Source of the DNA: Sneathiella chinensis
GTDB taxonomy: Bacteria; Pseudomonadota; Alphaproteobacteria; Sneathiellales; Sneathiellaceae
Length of the DNA: 64,000 nt
Direction of reading: 5' to 3'
Assembly: GCF_012720115.1 (NCBI RefSeq)
Contig: NZ_VNWN01000004.1
Span: 186,001-250,000, forward strand
A program made the translations under genes and the position numbers. The first letter of the stretch is position 1, and every line of letters begins with the position of its first letter. Below are positions 4,086 through 38,468 of this stretch, one piece after another. Under the pieces are notes generated by a model. The model was not told where the DNA came from, did no database searches, and was given only the letters and a program-made list of their open reading frames with translations.

Positions 4086-4541
4086 ATGACAGAAGAAACT
4101 GAAGCAGGGCCGGCAGCCGGGGCAACCGGTGCCGCCCCGGCCGTTGGTGGCCCCACCATGGCCGGGAAAATGCTTGTTCCCGACATGACCCCTTTCACCA
4201 TCGATCAGACGGCCAACCTGCAGAAGATGGTGGAAGCGAACCAGTTCATGTCTGCCGGGCTGCAGGAAATTGTCGCCGCCCAGAGGGAAGCCTTGCAAAG
4301 CATCCTGAAAGGATTTGAAACAGACCTGCAATCCAGTCGTTCCGCGGCGGGGCAACCCGCTGGCACCCTGCCAGGACTGGACCCGCAATTGACGGCATTT
4401 GCCGCCGCCATGGATAATTTCGGAGCGACGGCAACAGGCTTCAATGCGGCAACAACCAGGAATTTTGAAACCCTCGGACAATCCATCACCGCCTCGCTCG
4501 CAAAGATTGAAGAGGTGGCGATAAAATTTTCAGGTGGTTGA
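4086..4541 (+). CDS. Small phasin-like helical protein
   Basis: This is a 151-aa protein with an Ala/Gly/Pro-rich N-terminus (to about residue 45), then amphipathic helical sequence rich in Ala, Gln, Phe and Met without cysteines, such as LQKMVEANQFMSAGLQEI and later NFETLGQSITASLAKIEE. This composition resembles phasins, which coat polyhydroxyalkanoate granules, but no diagnostic motif makes the call certain. The start follows AAGGAGG with good spacing. It sits between proC and a tRNA-binding protein gene. No other polyhydroxyalkanoate gene is nearby, so function is open. Confidence 0.55.
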   Translation: MTEETEAGPAAGATGAAPAVGGPTMAGKMLVPDMTPFTIDQTANLQKMVEANQFMSAGLQEIVAAQREALQSILKGFETDLQSSRSAAGQPAGTLPGLDPQLTAFAAAMDNFGATATGFNAATTRNFETLGQSITASLAKIEEVAIKFSGG

Positions 4542-22952: not shown

Positions 22953-23180
22953 TCAGGCGCGCCAGAAAGGTTTGCGGGCTTCTGTGCGGGCATCCTGTCT
23001 GGAAATGCCCATATCGATCAAATTTTCTTCATCCAGTTGGGCCAGTTGGGCACGCATGCTTGCGCGTTCCTGCCACAGGAGAAGGCTGGCAAGGACTTTT
23101 GCCGTGAAACCGGATTTGCCGGTTTTCAGATCAAAGCCATAGCCCTTGGTCGGTTTGATGTTCAGTGTTCCGATGGACAT
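22953..23180 (-). CDS. DUF1127 (YjiS-like) small protein
   Basis: The 75-aa protein ends in a DUF1127 domain: LLLWQERASMRAQLAQLDEENLIDMGISRQDARTEARKPFW. DUF1127 proteins are small, Arg-rich and associated with RNA binding or turnover and phosphate/stress responses in alphaproteobacteria; in Brucella and Agrobacterium several are in the VtlR regulon. The ATG at 23180 sits 7 nt after AAGGAG; a GTG two codons upstream is too close to that site. It is divergent from the GcvA-like LysR gene. Confidence 0.85.
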   Translation of the reverse strand: MSIGTLNIKPTKGYGFDLKTGKSGFTAKVLASLLLWQERASMRAQLAQLDEENLIDMGISRQDARTEARKPFWRA

Positions 23181-23310: not shown

Positions 23311-23327
23311 GATTGAGGGAGGGAAAG

Positions 23328-24266
23328 ATGCGATTACCCCCGTTGAATGCCTTGAGGGTTTTTGAAGCGGCTGCACGTTGCCTGAGTTTTTCGAAAGCGG
23401 CGGAAGAACTTAATGTAACCCCGGCGGCTGTCAGTCACCAGATCAAGGCCCTTGAGGAATGGCTGGGCGTAACCCTTTTCAAGCGCCTGAACCGGGCGGT
23501 TATCCTGACCGAGGAAGGGCAAAAGTATGTTCTTGGCATACGGGAAGGGCTGGAAGCCATCGAAATGGCCACGGAAAAACTGTTGATGCAGGAAGAAGCC
23601 GGGGCCCTGACGGTCAGTACGCTTCCTTCATTTGCGGTGCGCTGGCTGCTTCCCCGTCTCAGCAAGTTTCGGGAGGATCACCCGGATATTGATATCCGTC
23701 TGGATGCGTCTGACCGATTGACGGATTTCGACCGGGAAGAGGTGGATCTGGTGATTCGCTATGGTAACGGGAACTATCCGGGGTTCCGGACCGAGAAGAT
23801 GCTGACAGAAGATACCCTGTTTCCCGTTTGCAGTCCGGCCCTGCTGCAAGGGGTTCATCCGTTACGACAGCCGGAGGACCTGATTCACCATACCCTGTTG
23901 CATGATGACCTGCGTGTGGATTGGGAAACCTGGCTGGCGGCGGCGGGGGTCAGGGGGATTGATCCAAAAAAGGGACCCAGCTTCAACGACTCTTCCATGG
24001 TGCTGACGGCGGCCATGGCCGGGCAGGGGGTGGCGCTGGGGCGGAGTACATTGGCCGCGGACGATCTGGCCGCGGGCCGTCTGGTCAAGCCGTTCGATGT
24101 GGAGATCCGGGCCGACAATGCCTATTACATCGTTTGCCCTGAGGCTTGGGCCGACCGCCCCCGAATCGTGACCTTCCGAAACTGGCTGCTGAAAGAGGCC
24201 GCGCTGGATCCGGGCCGGTTCATGTCCAGTGCGCAAGGGGATGAGGGCACGGACAGCGCGGGGTAA
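23328..24266 (+). CDS. LysR-family regulator, GcvA-like
   Basis: The 312-aa protein begins MRLPPLNALRVFEAAARCLSF and continues with SKAAEELNVTPAAVSHQIKALE, which closely resembles GcvA-type regulators (glycine cleavage and amino-acid control). The effector domain has LPSFAVRWLLPRL and the VDLVIRYGNG block typical of the subgroup. The start at 23328 follows GGGAGGG. No glycine cleavage gene is adjacent; the divergent DUF1127 gene is the nearest potential target. Confidence 0.88.
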   Translation: MRLPPLNALRVFEAAARCLSFSKAAEELNVTPAAVSHQIKALEEWLGVTLFKRLNRAVILTEEGQKYVLGIREGLEAIEMATEKLLMQEEAGALTVSTLPSFAVRWLLPRLSKFREDHPDIDIRLDASDRLTDFDREEVDLVIRYGNGNYPGFRTEKMLTEDTLFPVCSPALLQGVHPLRQPEDLIHHTLLHDDLRVDWETWLAAAGVRGIDPKKGPSFNDSSMVLTAAMAGQGVALGRSTLAADDLAAGRLVKPFDVEIRADNAYYIVCPEAWADRPRIVTFRNWLLKEAALDPGRFMSSAQGDEGTDSAG

Positions 24267-27903: not shown

Positions 27904-28003
27904 GGGGCTTCCTCTCACAGACTGTTGAATTGTATTTTACCGGCGCCAATCCAATTATTCCTTCTGAAGTGGTTGATTTTCGCTATTGAAGGAGGAGAAG
28001 GGC

Positions 28004-28978
28004 ATGCTCATCAGGATCAGGAAAAGCTGGGAGATACAGGAAAGCCGCGTCACGCCTGAGGCAACGTACGTGAACCGCCGGGATATTCTGCGGGGAATGG
28101 GGCTTGGCGGACTGGCGATCGGATCGGCTTCTCTTGGTTTGCCGGGAAAGGTGTATGCGGATAATGCAGACCCCAGCCAGAGCCTGTATCCGGTTTCCCG
28201 AAATCCGGCCTATCAGGTGGATCGGGACCTGACCCCCTACAAGATCGCGTCAACCTACAACAATTTCTATGAATTCGGGTCGCACAAGAATATTGCCCGG
28301 GCGGCGCAGCGCCTGAATATCCGACCGTGGACGGTCACCATTGATGGCATGGTGTCAACACCGCGTGAGATTGCCATTGATGATCTTCTTGCCCGAATGC
28401 CACTGGAGGAGCGGATCTATCGCCATCGCTGCGTCGAGGCGTGGTCCATGGTGGTGCCATGGAGTGGTTTCCCCTTGAAGGAACTGGTTCGTCTGGCCGA
28501 CCCGACGGCAGATGCCCGGTATCTGGTCATGCAGACATTCGAGGACAGTTCCGTTGCATCCGGGCAGAAGCAATTCTGGTATCCGTGGCCCTATACAGAG
28601 GTCCTGACACTTGAAGAGGCGACCCATGATCTCGCCTTCATGGTGACCGGTCTTTATGGAAAACCCGTTCCCAAGCAAAACGGGGCCCCGCTGCGGCTGG
28701 CGGTTCCGTGGAAATACGGGTTCAAGCATGTGAAGTCCATTGCCCGTTTCAGTTTCGTCAAGGAGCGGCCGAAAACCTTCTGGGAAACCCTGAACAGCGA
28801 TGAATATGGTTTCTGGGCAAATGTGAACCCGGATGTGCCGCATCCGCGCTGGTCACAGGCAAGCGAGCGGGACATCGGAACAGGGGAGCGCTTCCCGACA
28901 CTGCTTTTCAATGGCTACGCCGAAGCGGTTCAGGGGCTTTATCGGAATGTTGAGGATAAAAGCCGCCTGTTCGTATAG
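28004..28978 (+). CDS. msrP: Protein-methionine-sulfoxide reductase catalytic subunit MsrP
   Basis: This periplasmic molybdoenzyme of the sulfite oxidase fold repairs oxidised methionines in envelope proteins. The 324-aa precursor has a Tat signal with twin Arg at 25-26 (NRRDILRGMGLGGLA), a mature region with SHKNIARAAQ, and RHRCVEAWSMVVPWSGFPL in which Cys143 should bind molybdenum. The C-terminal RFPTLLFNGYAEAVQGLY is typical. Start at 28004 follows GGAGGAGAAGG. The membrane partner MsrQ, usually the next gene, is absent here; the minus-strand small-RNA array follows instead. Confidence 0.93.
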   Translation: MLIRIRKSWEIQESRVTPEATYVNRRDILRGMGLGGLAIGSASLGLPGKVYADNADPSQSLYPVSRNPAYQVDRDLTPYKIASTYNNFYEFGSHKNIARAAQRLNIRPWTVTIDGMVSTPREIAIDDLLARMPLEERIYRHRCVEAWSMVVPWSGFPLKELVRLADPTADARYLVMQTFEDSSVASGQKQFWYPWPYTEVLTLEEATHDLAFMVTGLYGKPVPKQNGAPLRLAVPWKYGFKHVKSIARFSFVKERPKTFWETLNSDEYGFWANVNPDVPHPRWSQASERDIGTGERFPTLLFNGYAEAVQGLYRNVEDKSRLFV

Positions 28979-29003
28979 TTGTTTTCTCAGACTGTACAAA
29001 AGG

Positions 29004-29155
29004 AAAAGCCGGCCTTTGGGAGAAAGGCCGGCCAGTCTAACAGGGAGATCTGTCTTATGAGAAAGACAGGCAGTAACCTCAATTTGGGAGGGTGAGGTTA
29101 CCGCAATTCAGGCTTTCACCCGAAAAGCGAAAAGTTAGGGGAACTGTTTCGCTTC
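29004..29155 (-). ncRNA. Candidate small RNA A of a tandem hairpin-RNA array
   Basis: Read on the minus strand there are four hairpins. HP1 (29127-29152) has loop CCCCT. HP2 (29073-29101) has stem GTAACCTCA/TGAGGTTAC and loop CCCTCCCAAAT. HP3 (29050-29069) has stem CTGTCTT/AAGACAG. A linker with CTCCCTGTTAGACT precedes terminator HP4 (29008-29032), GCCGGCCTTT-CTCCC-AAAGGCCGGC then TTTT. The T-run falls after the stem only on the minus strand, which sets the orientation. The 5' end is approximate. Three of four loops expose CCCC/CUCCC sequence complementary to Shine-Dalgarno regions. No expression evidence is available to me. Confidence 0.72.
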
Positions 29156-29211
29156 ATCCACATGTAGGTATGCAGGGGGAGGAATTGAATCCCTGAAAAG
29201 GCATGGCAGCC

Positions 29212-29226
29212 ATGCAGAAAACGCAT
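29212..29226. promoter_or_regulatory. LysR-type dyad upstream of small RNA A
   Basis: ATGCAGAAAACGCAT is an ATGC-N7-GCAT dyad with T and A separated by 11 nt, as in LysR boxes. Similar 15-mers precede RNA B and RNA C. Confidence 0.55.
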
Positions 29227-29238
29227 GTAGGGCGGATG

Positions 29239-29421
29239 AAAAAAAAGCCAGCCTCATAAGAGGCTGGCAAGTCTAACAGGGAGGTACACCATCTAAGGAT
29301 GGTGAAGGTTGTTCGCAAATGGGAGGAAAGCGAACAACCGGGAATATCGATAAGGGATCGATATTCGATCAATATTGCGGTGCAACGTTGATGAAGGGAA
29401 TATAGGGGTAACCGTCGGGCC
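29239..29421 (-). ncRNA. Candidate small RNA B of the array
   Basis: On the minus strand HP1 (29342-29366) is GAATATCGAT-CCCTT-ATCGATATTC, HP2 (29307-29339) has a perfect 10-bp stem GGTTGTTCGC/GCGAACAACC with loop TTTCCTCCCATTT, and HP3 (29287-29304) is CACCATC-CTTA-GATGGTG. The linker CCTCCCTGTTAGACTT follows, then terminator HP4 (29247-29268), GCCAGCCTC-TTAT-GAGGCTGGC with eight Ts. A possible promoter is TTGCAT at 29450-29455 and TATGTG at 29428-29433 (16-nt spacer), giving a start near 29421 and an RNA of roughly 180 nt. The promoter is inferred. Confidence 0.75.
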
Positions 29422-29449
29422 GTGCTACACATAATTTTGCAGTGCACCT

Positions 29450-29464
29450 ATGCAAAAACTGCAT
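29450..29464. promoter_or_regulatory. LysR-type dyad upstream of small RNA B
   Basis: ATGCAAAAACTGCAT, again ATGC-N7-GCAT/T-N11-A, overlaps the putative -35 element of RNA B. Confidence 0.55.
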
Positions 29465-29545
29465 TCCCGTTAAATCATTGAATTAATTTGTAAAAATATA
29501 ACAATTGGGGCAAGTGCGCTGCAATAAAACTGTCATACTTTGGGC

Positions 29546-29744
29546 AAAAAAATTGCCAGCCTCGGGAGAGGCTGGCAAGTCTAACAGGGAGGTTGCCATG
29601 TCAGGGGGACATGGCAGGCTGTTTGAGATTGGGAGGAAATCAAACAGCGTTTCGCGAAAAGTTGGGAGACTGTCGCGAAATTCGGTAGTGCTGCGATGCA
29701 GCATCTGATGACCTGTATTTATGAAATTCCTGAAGCAAATAGAA
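29546..29744 (-). ncRNA. Candidate small RNA C of the array
   Basis: On the minus strand HP1 (29650-29680) is TTTCGCGA/TCGCGAAA with a CTCCC loop, HP2 (29618-29648) is GCTGTTTGA/TCAAACAGC with loop TTTCCTCCCAATC, and HP3 (29594-29616) is TGCCATGTC-CCCCT-GACATGGCA. The linker CCTCCCTGTTAGACT follows, then terminator HP4 (29553-29578) with core GCCAGCCTC-TCCC-GAGGCTGGC and a T7 run. A TATATA at 29751-29756 could be the -10 element, giving a start near 29744. The terminator stem matches RNA B exactly, while the HP1 sequence resembles RNA A, so the three are duplicated and partly mixed copies. Confidence 0.75.
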
Positions 29745-29766
29745 GAAGAATATATACAATGCGGGC

Positions 29767-29781
29767 ATGCGTTTATTGCAT
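29767..29781. promoter_or_regulatory. LysR-type dyad upstream of small RNA C
   Basis: ATGCGTTTATTGCAT (minus strand ATGCAATAAACGCAT) differs from the RNA A site ATGCAGAAAACGCAT at only two positions. It lies just upstream of the putative RNA C promoter and about 60 bp after the end of the LysR gene. Confidence 0.6.
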
Positions 29782-29840: not shown

Positions 29841-30731
29841 TCAGAAATGGGATTCCGCGATCTTCTGAATCAGGAAGTCCCGGAAAATTGTCACCCGTTT
29901 TGATTTCCGAAGCTCCTCCGGATACACATAATAGGCGTCAAAGCTGGGGCCTTCCACTTCCGGCAGGATGCGGACAATATTGCTGTGACCCTGCACAATG
30001 TAATGGGGGAGGCTGCCAATACCGACACCGCTTTCGATGGCGAGAAGCAGTCCATAGACGTTGTTCACCTTGAAGATGGGCTCCACCCCCTTGTCGATCT
30101 GGGACAAGGTCTGCATGATCCAGTTTACATTCGAGATGTTGGATGGCGCTTCATCTCCATACACAATGATATTGTGGGAGATCAAATCCTCGACGCAGGT
30201 CGGGGCACCATGCTTTTGCAGATATTCCGGCGACGCATACAGGTGATGGCTGACGGTCATCAGCTTGCGCTTGATCAGGTCCGGTTGGACCGGTTCACGC
30301 AGGCGAATGGCAACGTCGGCTTCGCGCATGCCAAGGTCCAGTTCCTTGTCGGCCAGAACCAGGTTGACGGAAACATCCGGGTAGACATCCAGAAAATCAC
30401 GGATACGGGGGGTCAGCCAGTTGGCTCCCAATCCCACGGTGGCCGTCACCTTGATTTCGCCGGACGGCTTTTCGCGGGAATCCAGAAGGCGTGCTTCTGT
30501 CATGGCCAGTTTGGCAAACACCTCATGGGCCGTGCGGAACAGCAACTCGCCCTGCTCGGTCAGCAGCAGGCCGCGGGCGTGACGATGGAACAGGGAAACA
30601 GTCAGGCTTTCTTCAAGGGCACTGATCTGGCGGCTGACAGCGGATTGACTGAGATGCAGGGCTTCACCCGCACGAGTGAAGCTGCCTGCCTCTGCCACCG
30701 CATGAAATATTCTAAGTTTGTCCCAATCCAT
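29841..30731 (-). CDS. LysR-family regulator of the VtlR/LsrB type
   Basis: The 296-aa protein starts MDWDKLRIFHAVAEAGSF with a winged helix TRAGEALHLSQSAVSRQISALE and continues FHRHARGLLLTEQGELLF and LLDSREKPSGEIKVTATVGLG, which I recognise as the LsrB/VtlR group. LsrB (Sinorhizobium, Agrobacterium) acts in oxidative stress and envelope control; VtlR (Brucella) activates the small RNA AbcR2 and small DUF1127-type proteins. Like lsrB it lies beside trxB. Here it is directly upstream, on the same strand, of three candidate small RNAs. A large inverted repeat precedes its start. Confidence 0.85.
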   Translation of the reverse strand: MDWDKLRIFHAVAEAGSFTRAGEALHLSQSAVSRQISALEESLTVSLFHRHARGLLLTEQGELLFRTAHEVFAKLAMTEARLLDSREKPSGEIKVTATVGLGANWLTPRIRDFLDVYPDVSVNLVLADKELDLGMREADVAIRLREPVQPDLIKRKLMTVSHHLYASPEYLQKHGAPTCVEDLISHNIIVYGDEAPSNISNVNWIMQTLSQIDKGVEPIFKVNNVYGLLLAIESGVGIGSLPHYIVQGHSNIVRILPEVEGPSFDAYYVYPEELRKSKRVTIFRDFLIQKIAESHF

Positions 30732-30863: not shown

Positions 30864-31835
30864 TTATTCCGCGGCTTCCTGTGCGGCGTGATCCTCATTT
30901 TCTGCCAGATATTTTTCTGCCTCCAGCGCCGCCATACAGCCGGTACCGGCTGCTGTAACCGCCTGACGGTAGATCTTGTCCTGTACATCGCCGCAGGCAA
31001 AGACGCCGGGGATGTTGGTCGCGGTGGAATCCGGGGCGGTGAGGATATATCCCTCGTCATCCATGGTGATCTTGCCAGCAAAAACATCCGTATTCGGTTT
31101 GTGGCCGATGGCGACAAAAACGCCGTGAACAGACAGGTCGCGGGTTTCCCCGGTATTGACGTTCTTGATCCGGGCACCAGTGACGCCCAGCGGGTTGTCA
31201 TCCCCCAGAATTTCCTCAAGAACCGTGTCCCAGATAACCTCGATCTTCGGGTTCTTGTGCAGGCGGTCCACAAGGATTTTTTCCGCCCGGAAAGAATCAC
31301 GGCGATGGATGACGGTGACCTTGTCCGCATGGTTGGTCAGGTACATGGCCTCTTCAACGGCGGTGTTGCCGCCACCAACAACAAGGACTTCCTTGCCGCG
31401 ATAGAAGAAACCGTCACAGGTTGCGCAGGCGGAAACGCCAAATCCCATGAAGGTCTGTTCCGAGGGCAGGCCCAGCCATTTGGCTTGTGCACCTGTTGCG
31501 ATGACGATGCTGTCTGCCTTGTAGACATTGCCGGAATCAGAAGTCGCCACATAGGGACGGGAGGAGAAATCCACGTCGACAATGATGTCATGGTGAATGA
31601 CGGTTCCGACGTTGCGGGCCTGCGCTTCCATCTGTTCCATCAGCCACGGCCCCTGAATGGGGTCTGCGAAACCGGGATAGTTCTCCACCTCGGTGGTAAT
31701 GGTCAATTGCCCGCCGGGCTGAATGCCATGAACCATGATGGGGTTAAGGGAAGCCCGGGCCGCGTAAACGGCGGCGGTGCATCCGGCCGGACCGGATCCG
31801 ATGATTAGAACACTGGTGTTGAAGGTCTCGGCCAT
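30864..31835 (-). CDS. trxB: Thioredoxin-disulfide reductase
   Basis: This FAD enzyme passes electrons from NADPH to thioredoxin. The 323-aa product has the FAD motif IIGSGPAGCTAA (11-22), the redox pair Cys137/Cys140 in ACATCDG, the NADPH motif VVGGGNTAVEEA and the C-terminal GVFACGDVQDKIYRQAVTAAGTG. The ATG at 31835 follows CAGGAG; an upstream ATG at 31865 is less likely. It is upstream of the VtlR/LsrB-like gene on the same strand, a conserved alphaproteobacterial pairing that fits an oxidative-stress role. Confidence 0.97.
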   Translation of the reverse strand: MAETFNTSVLIIGSGPAGCTAAVYAARASLNPIMVHGIQPGGQLTITTEVENYPGFADPIQGPWLMEQMEAQARNVGTVIHHDIIVDVDFSSRPYVATSDSGNVYKADSIVIATGAQAKWLGLPSEQTFMGFGVSACATCDGFFYRGKEVLVVGGGNTAVEEAMYLTNHADKVTVIHRRDSFRAEKILVDRLHKNPKIEVIWDTVLEEILGDDNPLGVTGARIKNVNTGETRDLSVHGVFVAIGHKPNTDVFAGKITMDDEGYILTAPDSTATNIPGVFACGDVQDKIYRQAVTAAGTGCMAALEAEKYLAENEDHAAQEAAE

Positions 31836-31963
31836 TTCTTGCTCCTGAAAATCCTGTCTTCGCACTGATCGCGTTTGCGCGAGTGTCTCTATTTATTACG
31901 CGTGGTATGGACATGCAAGGGGCAGTATGGAGCAATTCCCGAAGGCAGCCTGCTTCTGGTTGT

Positions 31964-37836: not shown

Positions 37837-38169
37837 AAAGTTGCTCCTGCAAAATGTCTTGCGGGAAGGCTATACCGTTGTCGAAAGCAGGTCCAGACGG
37901 GAAACTGTCCAGCCGGTCTCTAAATGCAGAAAGAGGAAGGGAAATAACGGTTGATCTGTTGGGAAACAGAAACGGCATTCGACTGTTGACGGGGGAATTA
38001 ATTAAGGGGGCTGCCTATACAAGCGCCCCCTTTTATTTTTTTATTCGTTACCTCAACCTGTCAGACTTGACCTGTTGGCAAGAATAAAACGCTGAAACTG
38101 AATTTGTGTCAAGCCTCGGTGTCAAAAAAAATTCATATTTCTTTGTCAGGGGGAGGCGGGCTCCCGGAT
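37837..38169. other. Non-coding region upstream of metY
   Basis: There is no credible ORF. The region must contain the metY promoter and leader. It holds a GC-rich hairpin with a T-rich flank on the plus strand (38006-38042), described separately, and a smaller CTGTT-GGGA-AACAG hairpin around 37957-37970. No known riboswitch pattern was recognised. Confidence 0.5.
38006..38042 (+). terminator. Terminator-like hairpin on the plus strand upstream of metY
   Basis: GGGGGC pairs with GCCCCC around a 13-nt loop and is followed by TTTTATTTTTTT. The nearest gene, metY, is on the other strand, so if this terminates anything it would be an unannotated plus-strand RNA antisense to the metY leader. It could also be part of the metY promoter region. 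Confidence 0.4.
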
Positions 38170-38262
38170 AAAAAAAAGAGCCGCCGAATGGGCGGCTCAA
38201 GTCAACAGGGAGGCGTCAAACAGATTGGATGAGATCCAATCCACAGCCCTAGTTGGGCTGAC
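38170..38262 (-). ncRNA. Candidate small RNA D, diverged copy of the array RNAs
   Basis: On the minus strand CAGCCC-AACTA-GGGCTG (38244-38260) is followed by GATTGGAT-CTC-ATCCAATC (38223-38241). The linker CCTCCCTGTTGACTT (compare CCTCCCTGTTAGACTT in B and C) then leads into terminator GAGCCGCC-CATTC-GGCGGCTC with eight Ts. The 5' end may lie further upstream. The conserved linker and terminator architecture link it to RNAs A-C, 9 kb away, although the CCUCCC-loop hairpin is missing. It lies between DUF1192 and metY. Confidence 0.68.
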
Positions 38263-38468
38263 ACTAATCAATTTAGGGGGATTTCATTAAATTACAATTA
38301 ATGAATACACAAAAATTACCAAAAATAATCAGTTTTTTATGTGGAATATCGCCTTGCAATTCGAAAGAATAACAATGTATTCCTAAAATAATGTGTTTTT
38401 TCAGTCAGATAGATTGTGGCGCCGCCTTGTGGCGGTCTTCGGTTCCGGATAGTCGGGGCTGACCTTTC

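Follow-up and report, generated by a model that had tools for sequence, protein, structure and literature searches.

The window analyzed here, a 64,000-nucleotide stretch of the Sneathiella chinensis genome, carries on its minus strand the gene for a 296-amino-acid LysR regulator of the LsrB/VtlR type (29841..30731), with HTH_1 and LysR_substrate domains and a match to PDB entry 9HH1. Directly upstream of it lies trxB, for thioredoxin-disulfide reductase (30864..31865, minus strand; TIGR01292, 415 bits), and downstream of it are three predicted small RNAs, tandem paralogues with intrinsic terminators. On the minus strand the order is lsrB, site 29767, RNA 29708-29545 (copy 1), site 29450, RNA 29392-29237 (copy 2), site 29212, RNA 29151-28998 (copy 3). 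lsrB and the RNA cluster are flanked by redox-repair genes: trxB on one side and, on the other, msrP (27986-28978, plus strand), for protein-methionine-sulfoxide reductase.

By reciprocal scores and synteny, the regulator is an LsrB/VtlR orthologue, in agreement with the group to which the original prediction had assigned it. A. tumefaciens LsrB (9HH1) aligned with it at 335 bits, as against 123 bits for the next PDB LysR chain, and the LsrB of a Mesorhizobium locus with ar15 downstream (L116) picked out the window gene at 365 bits, the next LysR gene reaching 134 bits. The HTH region was near-identical to that of A. tumefaciens LsrB, and 103 of 110 related loci had a TrxB-like sequence in the same orientation upstream of lsrB; in Rhizobiales, lsrB and trxB are described as one operon (PMC11975290). 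LsrB proteins (E up to 1e-60) were present in 40 of 60 genomes, this one included, and in 19 of 37 genera. These homologues contradict the statement, made in the accessible part of the same paper from a tree of few species, that LsrB is unique to Rhizobiales (PMC11975290), and it does not hold.

As originally predicted, three sites fit both ATGC-N7-GCAT and the LysR T-N11-A rule (T2, A14): exact matches stand on the minus strand at 29767-29781 (ATGCAATAAACGCAT), 29450-29464 (ATGCAGTTTTTGCAT), and 29212-29226 (ATGCGTTTTCTGCAT), lying 58, 57, and 60 bp before model position 1 of RNA copies 1, 2, and 3, with no other copy in the window. With 1.79 copies expected in the window, the pattern by itself is not rare, and the genome-wide search that had been proposed as a check found it at 43 places in 3.55 Mb (3,547,739 bp), yet the cluster in the window is far from chance: in 20,000 dinucleotide shuffles of the 862 bp that separate msrP from the LysR gene, three dyads were never reached, and the Poisson probability at the genome rate was 1.9e-7. 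A chance origin of the cluster was ruled out by the shuffles, even though the bare pattern is near expectation in the window. The longer, 24-bp pattern ATGCR-N5-YGCAT-N4-G-N3-T had four matches in the whole genome, three of them the window sites and the fourth, at C17:434596, within a long open frame. Single sites with purine at position 5 and pyrimidine at position 11 (C12:896352, C12:1219053, C12:1333006, and C17:57429) also fell within long frames. The genome-wide count of the exact 24-bp pattern thus did not reveal a large set of additional sites; a one-mismatch search of the genome returned 40 rows.

The identity of these dyads with the published LsrB box, in sequence as well as register, is supported, so that LsrB would be expected to bind them here. 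In S. meliloti, where LsrB activates, the box takes the forms GCAT-N3-TG-N3-T and TGCA-N6-GCAT at about -72 to -49 and is like the one found here (PMC8844928, PMC10746234). In the sections of those reports that are accessible, the first form is the LsrB consensus and spans -61 to -49 relative to the abcR1 start, backed by reporter, Northern, and gel-shift data (PMC8844928), and the second lies in the nfeR1 promoter, where a point mutation abolished the gel shift (PMC10746234). Within the window, TGCA-N6-GCAT was exact in copies 1 and 2, and copy 3 read TGCG-N6-GCAT. The half-box that follows the dyad was exact (GCAT-N3-TG-N3-T) in copy 2 (GCATAGGTGCACT; extended box at 29441..29464, minus strand) and copy 3 (GCATGGCTGCCAT; 29203..29226, minus strand) and had one mismatch in copy 1 (GCATGCCCGCATT; 29758..29781, minus strand), with CG against the published TG. 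From the start of GCAT to RNA model position 1 we counted 62 bp for copy 1, 61 bp for copy 2, and 64 bp for copy 3, and in Mesorhizobium (L116, L118) and Pleomorphomonas (L105) a GCAT-N3-NG-N3-T element stands at -61 relative to where ar15 begins. The Brucella VtlR motif CAATGCAGCCATGCA also resembles the copy 3 promoter (reverse complement CATGGCAGCCATGCA), at 13 of 15 positions by count (PMC12595884). Ahead of copy 2, a candidate -10 element, TATATT, can be read at 29399..29404 (minus strand), with no good -35 element.

The three RNAs differ in how strongly they match the covariance model R1 but share their architecture. Copy 1, adjoining lsrB (29545..29708, minus strand), scored 105 bits and carries anti-Shine-Dalgarno motifs and a terminator at 29578-29553; copy 2, the middle one (29237..29392, minus strand), scored 157 bits with its own sequence included in the model, and has five hairpins and covariation in the genus; copy 3, the distal one (28998..29151, minus strand), scored 61.6 bits, with a terminator at 29033-29007. 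Folding energies lay 10.4, 11.1, and 6.8 standard deviations below those of shuffles for copies 1, 2, and 3 (z of -10.4, -11.1, and, over 29001-29136, -6.8). In the predicted fold four hairpins are followed by the terminator, and CCUCCC stays unpaired at two places, the third hairpin's loop and the linker leading into the terminator. What marks a trans-acting anti-Shine-Dalgarno small RNA was therefore found, namely unpaired CCUCCC/CUCCC in a structured RNA with an intrinsic terminator, the pairing with mRNA being a prediction. Plus-strand RNAs were considered and rejected, as terminators, model matches, and dyad register all point to the minus strand.

Conservation of the structure was assessed on genus sequences alone, with 4 extracted RNAs skipped and other genera left out of the alignment. 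An RNAalifold consensus over 45 RNAs of the three paralogue groups recovered the terminator only, because the MAFFT alignment of the paralogues was poor 5' of the terminator; pairs were therefore counted on the middle-copy orthologues alone (20 of 45). Among these, 96.9% of cells were paired and 22 of 44 pairs had changed on both sides, compared with at most 48.8% of cells and at most 9 double-sided pairs in slid-partner controls, a comparison biased in favor of the counted structure in that it was taken from the window copy. In the own genome, R1 gave three strong matches, all at this locus (157, 105, and 62 bits). The next ones, at 22.9 and 22.7 bits, were window 38169-38340 and C17:366172-366349, and no LsrB half-box was found upstream of either. 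Window positions 38171-38298 (minus strand; R1, 22.9 bits) hold an Rfam BjrC1505 small RNA at 65.5 bits, above its gathering score, with an CCUCCCUGUUGACUU linker.

Membership of the window RNAs in known Rfam families was rejected. The ar15 model (AbcR; gathering score, 40 bits) matched nothing between 28900 and 29900 with E allowed up to 5, and a search of the own genome with it placed none at the lsrB locus. SorX (RF02784) reached 39.3, 38.4, and 36.5 bits, below its gathering score of 46.6, and suhB/MmgR (RF00519) up to 35.5 bits, below 41; both families share with the window RNAs an CCUCCCUGUU-type linker before the terminator, but the match is confined to the 3' half. At the same place in the lsrB loci of Mesorhizobium (L116, L118) and Pleomorphomonas (L105), ar15 itself was found, and in two of the three R1 overlapped it (L116, 4156-4321 versus 4202-4316; L118, 4150-4315 versus 4196-4310), the shared part being the CCUCCCA loop and the terminator; R1 did not reach the third (L105). 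Model and synteny together support a reading of the window RNAs as structured anti-Shine-Dalgarno RNAs that occupy the AbcR position.

Similar arrangements have been described in parts of the literature accessible to us. As here, S. meliloti lsrB adjoins tandem anti-Shine-Dalgarno RNAs in a system of LsrB with AbcR1/AbcR2 and NfeR1 (PMC8844928, PMC10746234), but of its tandem pair only AbcR1 is LsrB dependent, AbcR2 being under RpoH1, whereas all three RNAs in the window have the box; NfeR1 is a further LsrB-activated RNA there, and the window RNAs miss the ar15 model. Brucella has the same trxB-vtlR order with a small RNA behind, but this host-associated pathogen has one VtlR-dependent RNA at the locus as opposed to three (PMC12595884). 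In A. tumefaciens, where VtlR/LsrB acts with AbcR1, atu1667, and VrsA, the regulator is orthologous (9HH1), stands in a trxB operon, and has very few consensus sites (PMC7486931, PMC11975290).

Not every RNA copy in the genus retains its box. Three RNAs were present in 20 of the 21 genus loci with downstream sequence and two in the remaining one. Based on 68 of 76 R1 rows (8 rows below 23 bits were left out), an exact dyad preceded the first copy in 20/21 loci, the second in 17/21 (the other 4 had one mismatch), and the third in only 7/20; thus, the third copy appears to be under looser control. The predicted site upstream of each RNA therefore stood for this species, at 57 to 60 bp, but did not extend to most distal copies of the genus. 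Among the 13 third copies that have no exact dyad, inspection by eye found the half-box kept in 4, with one mismatch in 2, and absent in 7 (L020, L022, L023, L024, L029, L030, and L037), and the promoters of these last seven share a different, largely common sequence that is possibly read by another sigma factor. The second AbcR of S. meliloti is reported to be under RpoH1 and not LsrB (PMC8844928).

The association of dyad and lsrB extends across Alphaproteobacteria. Across 80 named LsrB loci, the 31.4 kb just after the lsrB stop codon held 30 strict sites, compared with 3 in the 101.6 kb lying farther than 1 kb downstream and 2 in the 192 kb on the upstream side. In the first 1 kb after lsrB (30 loci, genus and class), position 5 was a purine and position 11 a pyrimidine in all 52 of the ATGC-N7-GCAT sites, a constraint that was not part of the search pattern. 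Of the 80 named loci, 28 had a strict site in the 400 bp that follow lsrB and 52 had none, which means that not every locus has the full dyad. R1 had 47 matches at E up to 0.01 in 45 of the 80 loci, the window and L046 not counted (47 of 69 rows were used; left out were window rows, matches with E weaker than 0.01, and L046, whose contig is identical with that of the genus locus L037). A strict dyad stood no more than 130 bp before the RNA in 21 of these 45 loci; 17 of 23 dyads were 54 to 61 bp from the RNA, and several other loci had a one-mismatch dyad at 58 to 61 bp. Behind lsrB in a Hyphomicrobiales MAG (L087, 3787-3890), two dyads accompany a weak match to Rfam ar14 (30.6 bits; cutoff, 58.8), which we take to be the NfeR1 family; this might connect ar14 with the RNAs that occupy the place of AbcR. 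We did not find an lsrB-small RNA module described for such non-Rhizobiales taxa in the open-access literature, and the accessible part of an Azospirillum brasilense small RNA survey does not report one (PMC7685610).

DUF1127 genes offer a lead toward further targets. Brucella VtlR is reported to activate AbcR2 and three DUF1127 proteins (PMC12595884), a connection that the original prediction had named and for which sequence support was now found in a conserved genus dyad and in enrichment in other families. The own genome contains three DUF1127 matches in two genes. The dyad ATGCRNNNNNYGCA[AG] lies about 450 bp upstream of the two-domain DUF1127 gene and was in the same place in 21 of 22 main genus loci; the 22nd (L184) has the dyad at a place outside the compared range. 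At C12:1333006-1334159 (L143), a 93-amino-acid frame that has no Pfam match is followed by a 179-amino-acid protein with two DUF1127 stretches, and the shared upstream region, strongly conserved in the genus, includes the dyad and a TTGTTT-N17-AATATA-like promoter. Around 30 DUF1127 loci of other genera (13 genomes; 3 loci were cut by contig ends, which makes their center approximate), 7 strict dyads occurred within 700 bp upstream versus 1 in an equal stretch downstream, where 0.34 would be expected upstream from the density away from lsrB; looser dyads numbered 15 versus 2, and the half-box was exact in 2 of the 7. Control of DUF1127 genes by LsrB may be proposed on these grounds as a lead, short of proof. 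Elsewhere in the window, a small DUF1127 gene (22986-23090, minus strand; 35 bits) adjoins a GcvA-type LysR gene (23313-24266), with no exact dyad nearby.

The signal to which this LsrB responds may also differ from that in A. tumefaciens, where cysteines 144, 236, 244, and 273 are reported to act in redox sensing (PMC7486931, PMC11975290). In the 9HH1 alignment these four correspond to V140, I232, S240, and V269 of the window protein, whose sole cysteine is Cys179. Among 110 homologues, a cysteine was found in the C144 column in 8, the C236 column in 11, the C244 column in none, and the C273 column in 3; therefore, a thiol switch is not a general property of the LsrB group. Judging from these alignments, the A. 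tumefaciens cysteine switch is unlikely in the window protein, which would sense its signal in another way.

Three other readings of the dyads were weighed. A promoter-plus-RNA unit duplicated twice would carry the dyad along even if it had no function, as duplication copies the promoter too and the three RNAs are indeed tandem paralogues. However, across 30 loci the dyad arms were kept while the 5-bp spacer varied, single-copy loci of other families had the dyad at the same 54- to 61-bp spacing, and distal copies of other species did lose it, which indicates that the dyad decays when not needed; passive repetition is accordingly highly improbable. The dyads might instead be bound by another regulator, of the LysR or NtrC kind, lsrB being a mere neighbor: T-N11-A is generic for LysR proteins, the genome has 17 LysR-like matches and so at least 16 other candidates, and in S. 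meliloti NtrC acts as a repressor of nfeR1 beside the site for LsrB (PMC10746234). This we consider very unlikely, given that the sequence and register equal those of the reported LsrB box, that the DNA-binding region so closely resembles that of A. tumefaciens LsrB, that the dyad is tied to lsrB loci class-wide, and that the NtrC motif is given in that report as TGC-N11-GCA and not TGC-N7-GCA (PMC10746234). Action at the RNA level, within a leader or a read-through transcript, would draw on the inverted-repeat arms, which could form a 5-bp stem, but 5-bp arms around a 5-nucleotide loop are weak, the dyad lies upstream of the inferred start and of the -10 element, and it matches a DNA box with published protein-binding data; we give this reading almost no credence.

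We thus regard the locus as very probably the core of an LsrB/VtlR regulon, comprising LsrB and a box before each of three activated anti-Shine-Dalgarno RNAs, and the original proposal of a regulator plus a multicopy RNA module finds support in orthology, box identity, and RNA structure. The sites, the RNAs, their conserved structure and spacing, the orthology, and the class-wide recurrence come directly from computation, and from them we infer the following course for binding, activation, and transcript ends. LsrB would bind the imperfect 15-bp dyad and its downstream half-site (ATGCR-N5-YGCAT-N3-NG-N3-T), about 75 to 58 bp upstream of the predicted RNA starts, and would switch on three tandem sigma-70 promoters with weak -35 elements. 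The products would be three RNAs of about 155 to 165 nucleotides, each with four hairpins, a terminator, and CCUCCC placed both in a loop and in an unpaired linker, and they may block translation by pairing with the ribosome-binding sites of mRNAs, probably those for transport and metabolism, as for AbcR. Elsewhere in the genome, LsrB probably has a further target in the DUF1127 operon.

Circuits of LsrB/VtlR and small RNAs are a known kind of system. New here are the three tandem RNAs with a box each, a class-wide footprint reaching beyond Rhizobiales, a regulator that lacks the redox cysteines, and turnover at the distal RNA. It seems reasonably likely that LsrB, anti-Shine-Dalgarno RNA, and DUF1127 form an ancestral alphaproteobacterial core and not a trait of host-associated Rhizobiales, that the redox cysteines were a late addition in some lineages, and that the RNA was triplicated in this genus, with the distal copy released from or kept under LsrB depending on the species. 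The absence of the redox cysteines from nearly all of the 110 relatives calls into question how general the thiol-switch model is. Together, our analyses widen the LsrB/VtlR-small RNA circuit, described in root-nodule bacteria and Brucella, to many further families of Alphaproteobacteria, and the tandem RNAs with and without boxes in one genus offer a natural series on how the control of small RNA paralogues diverges.
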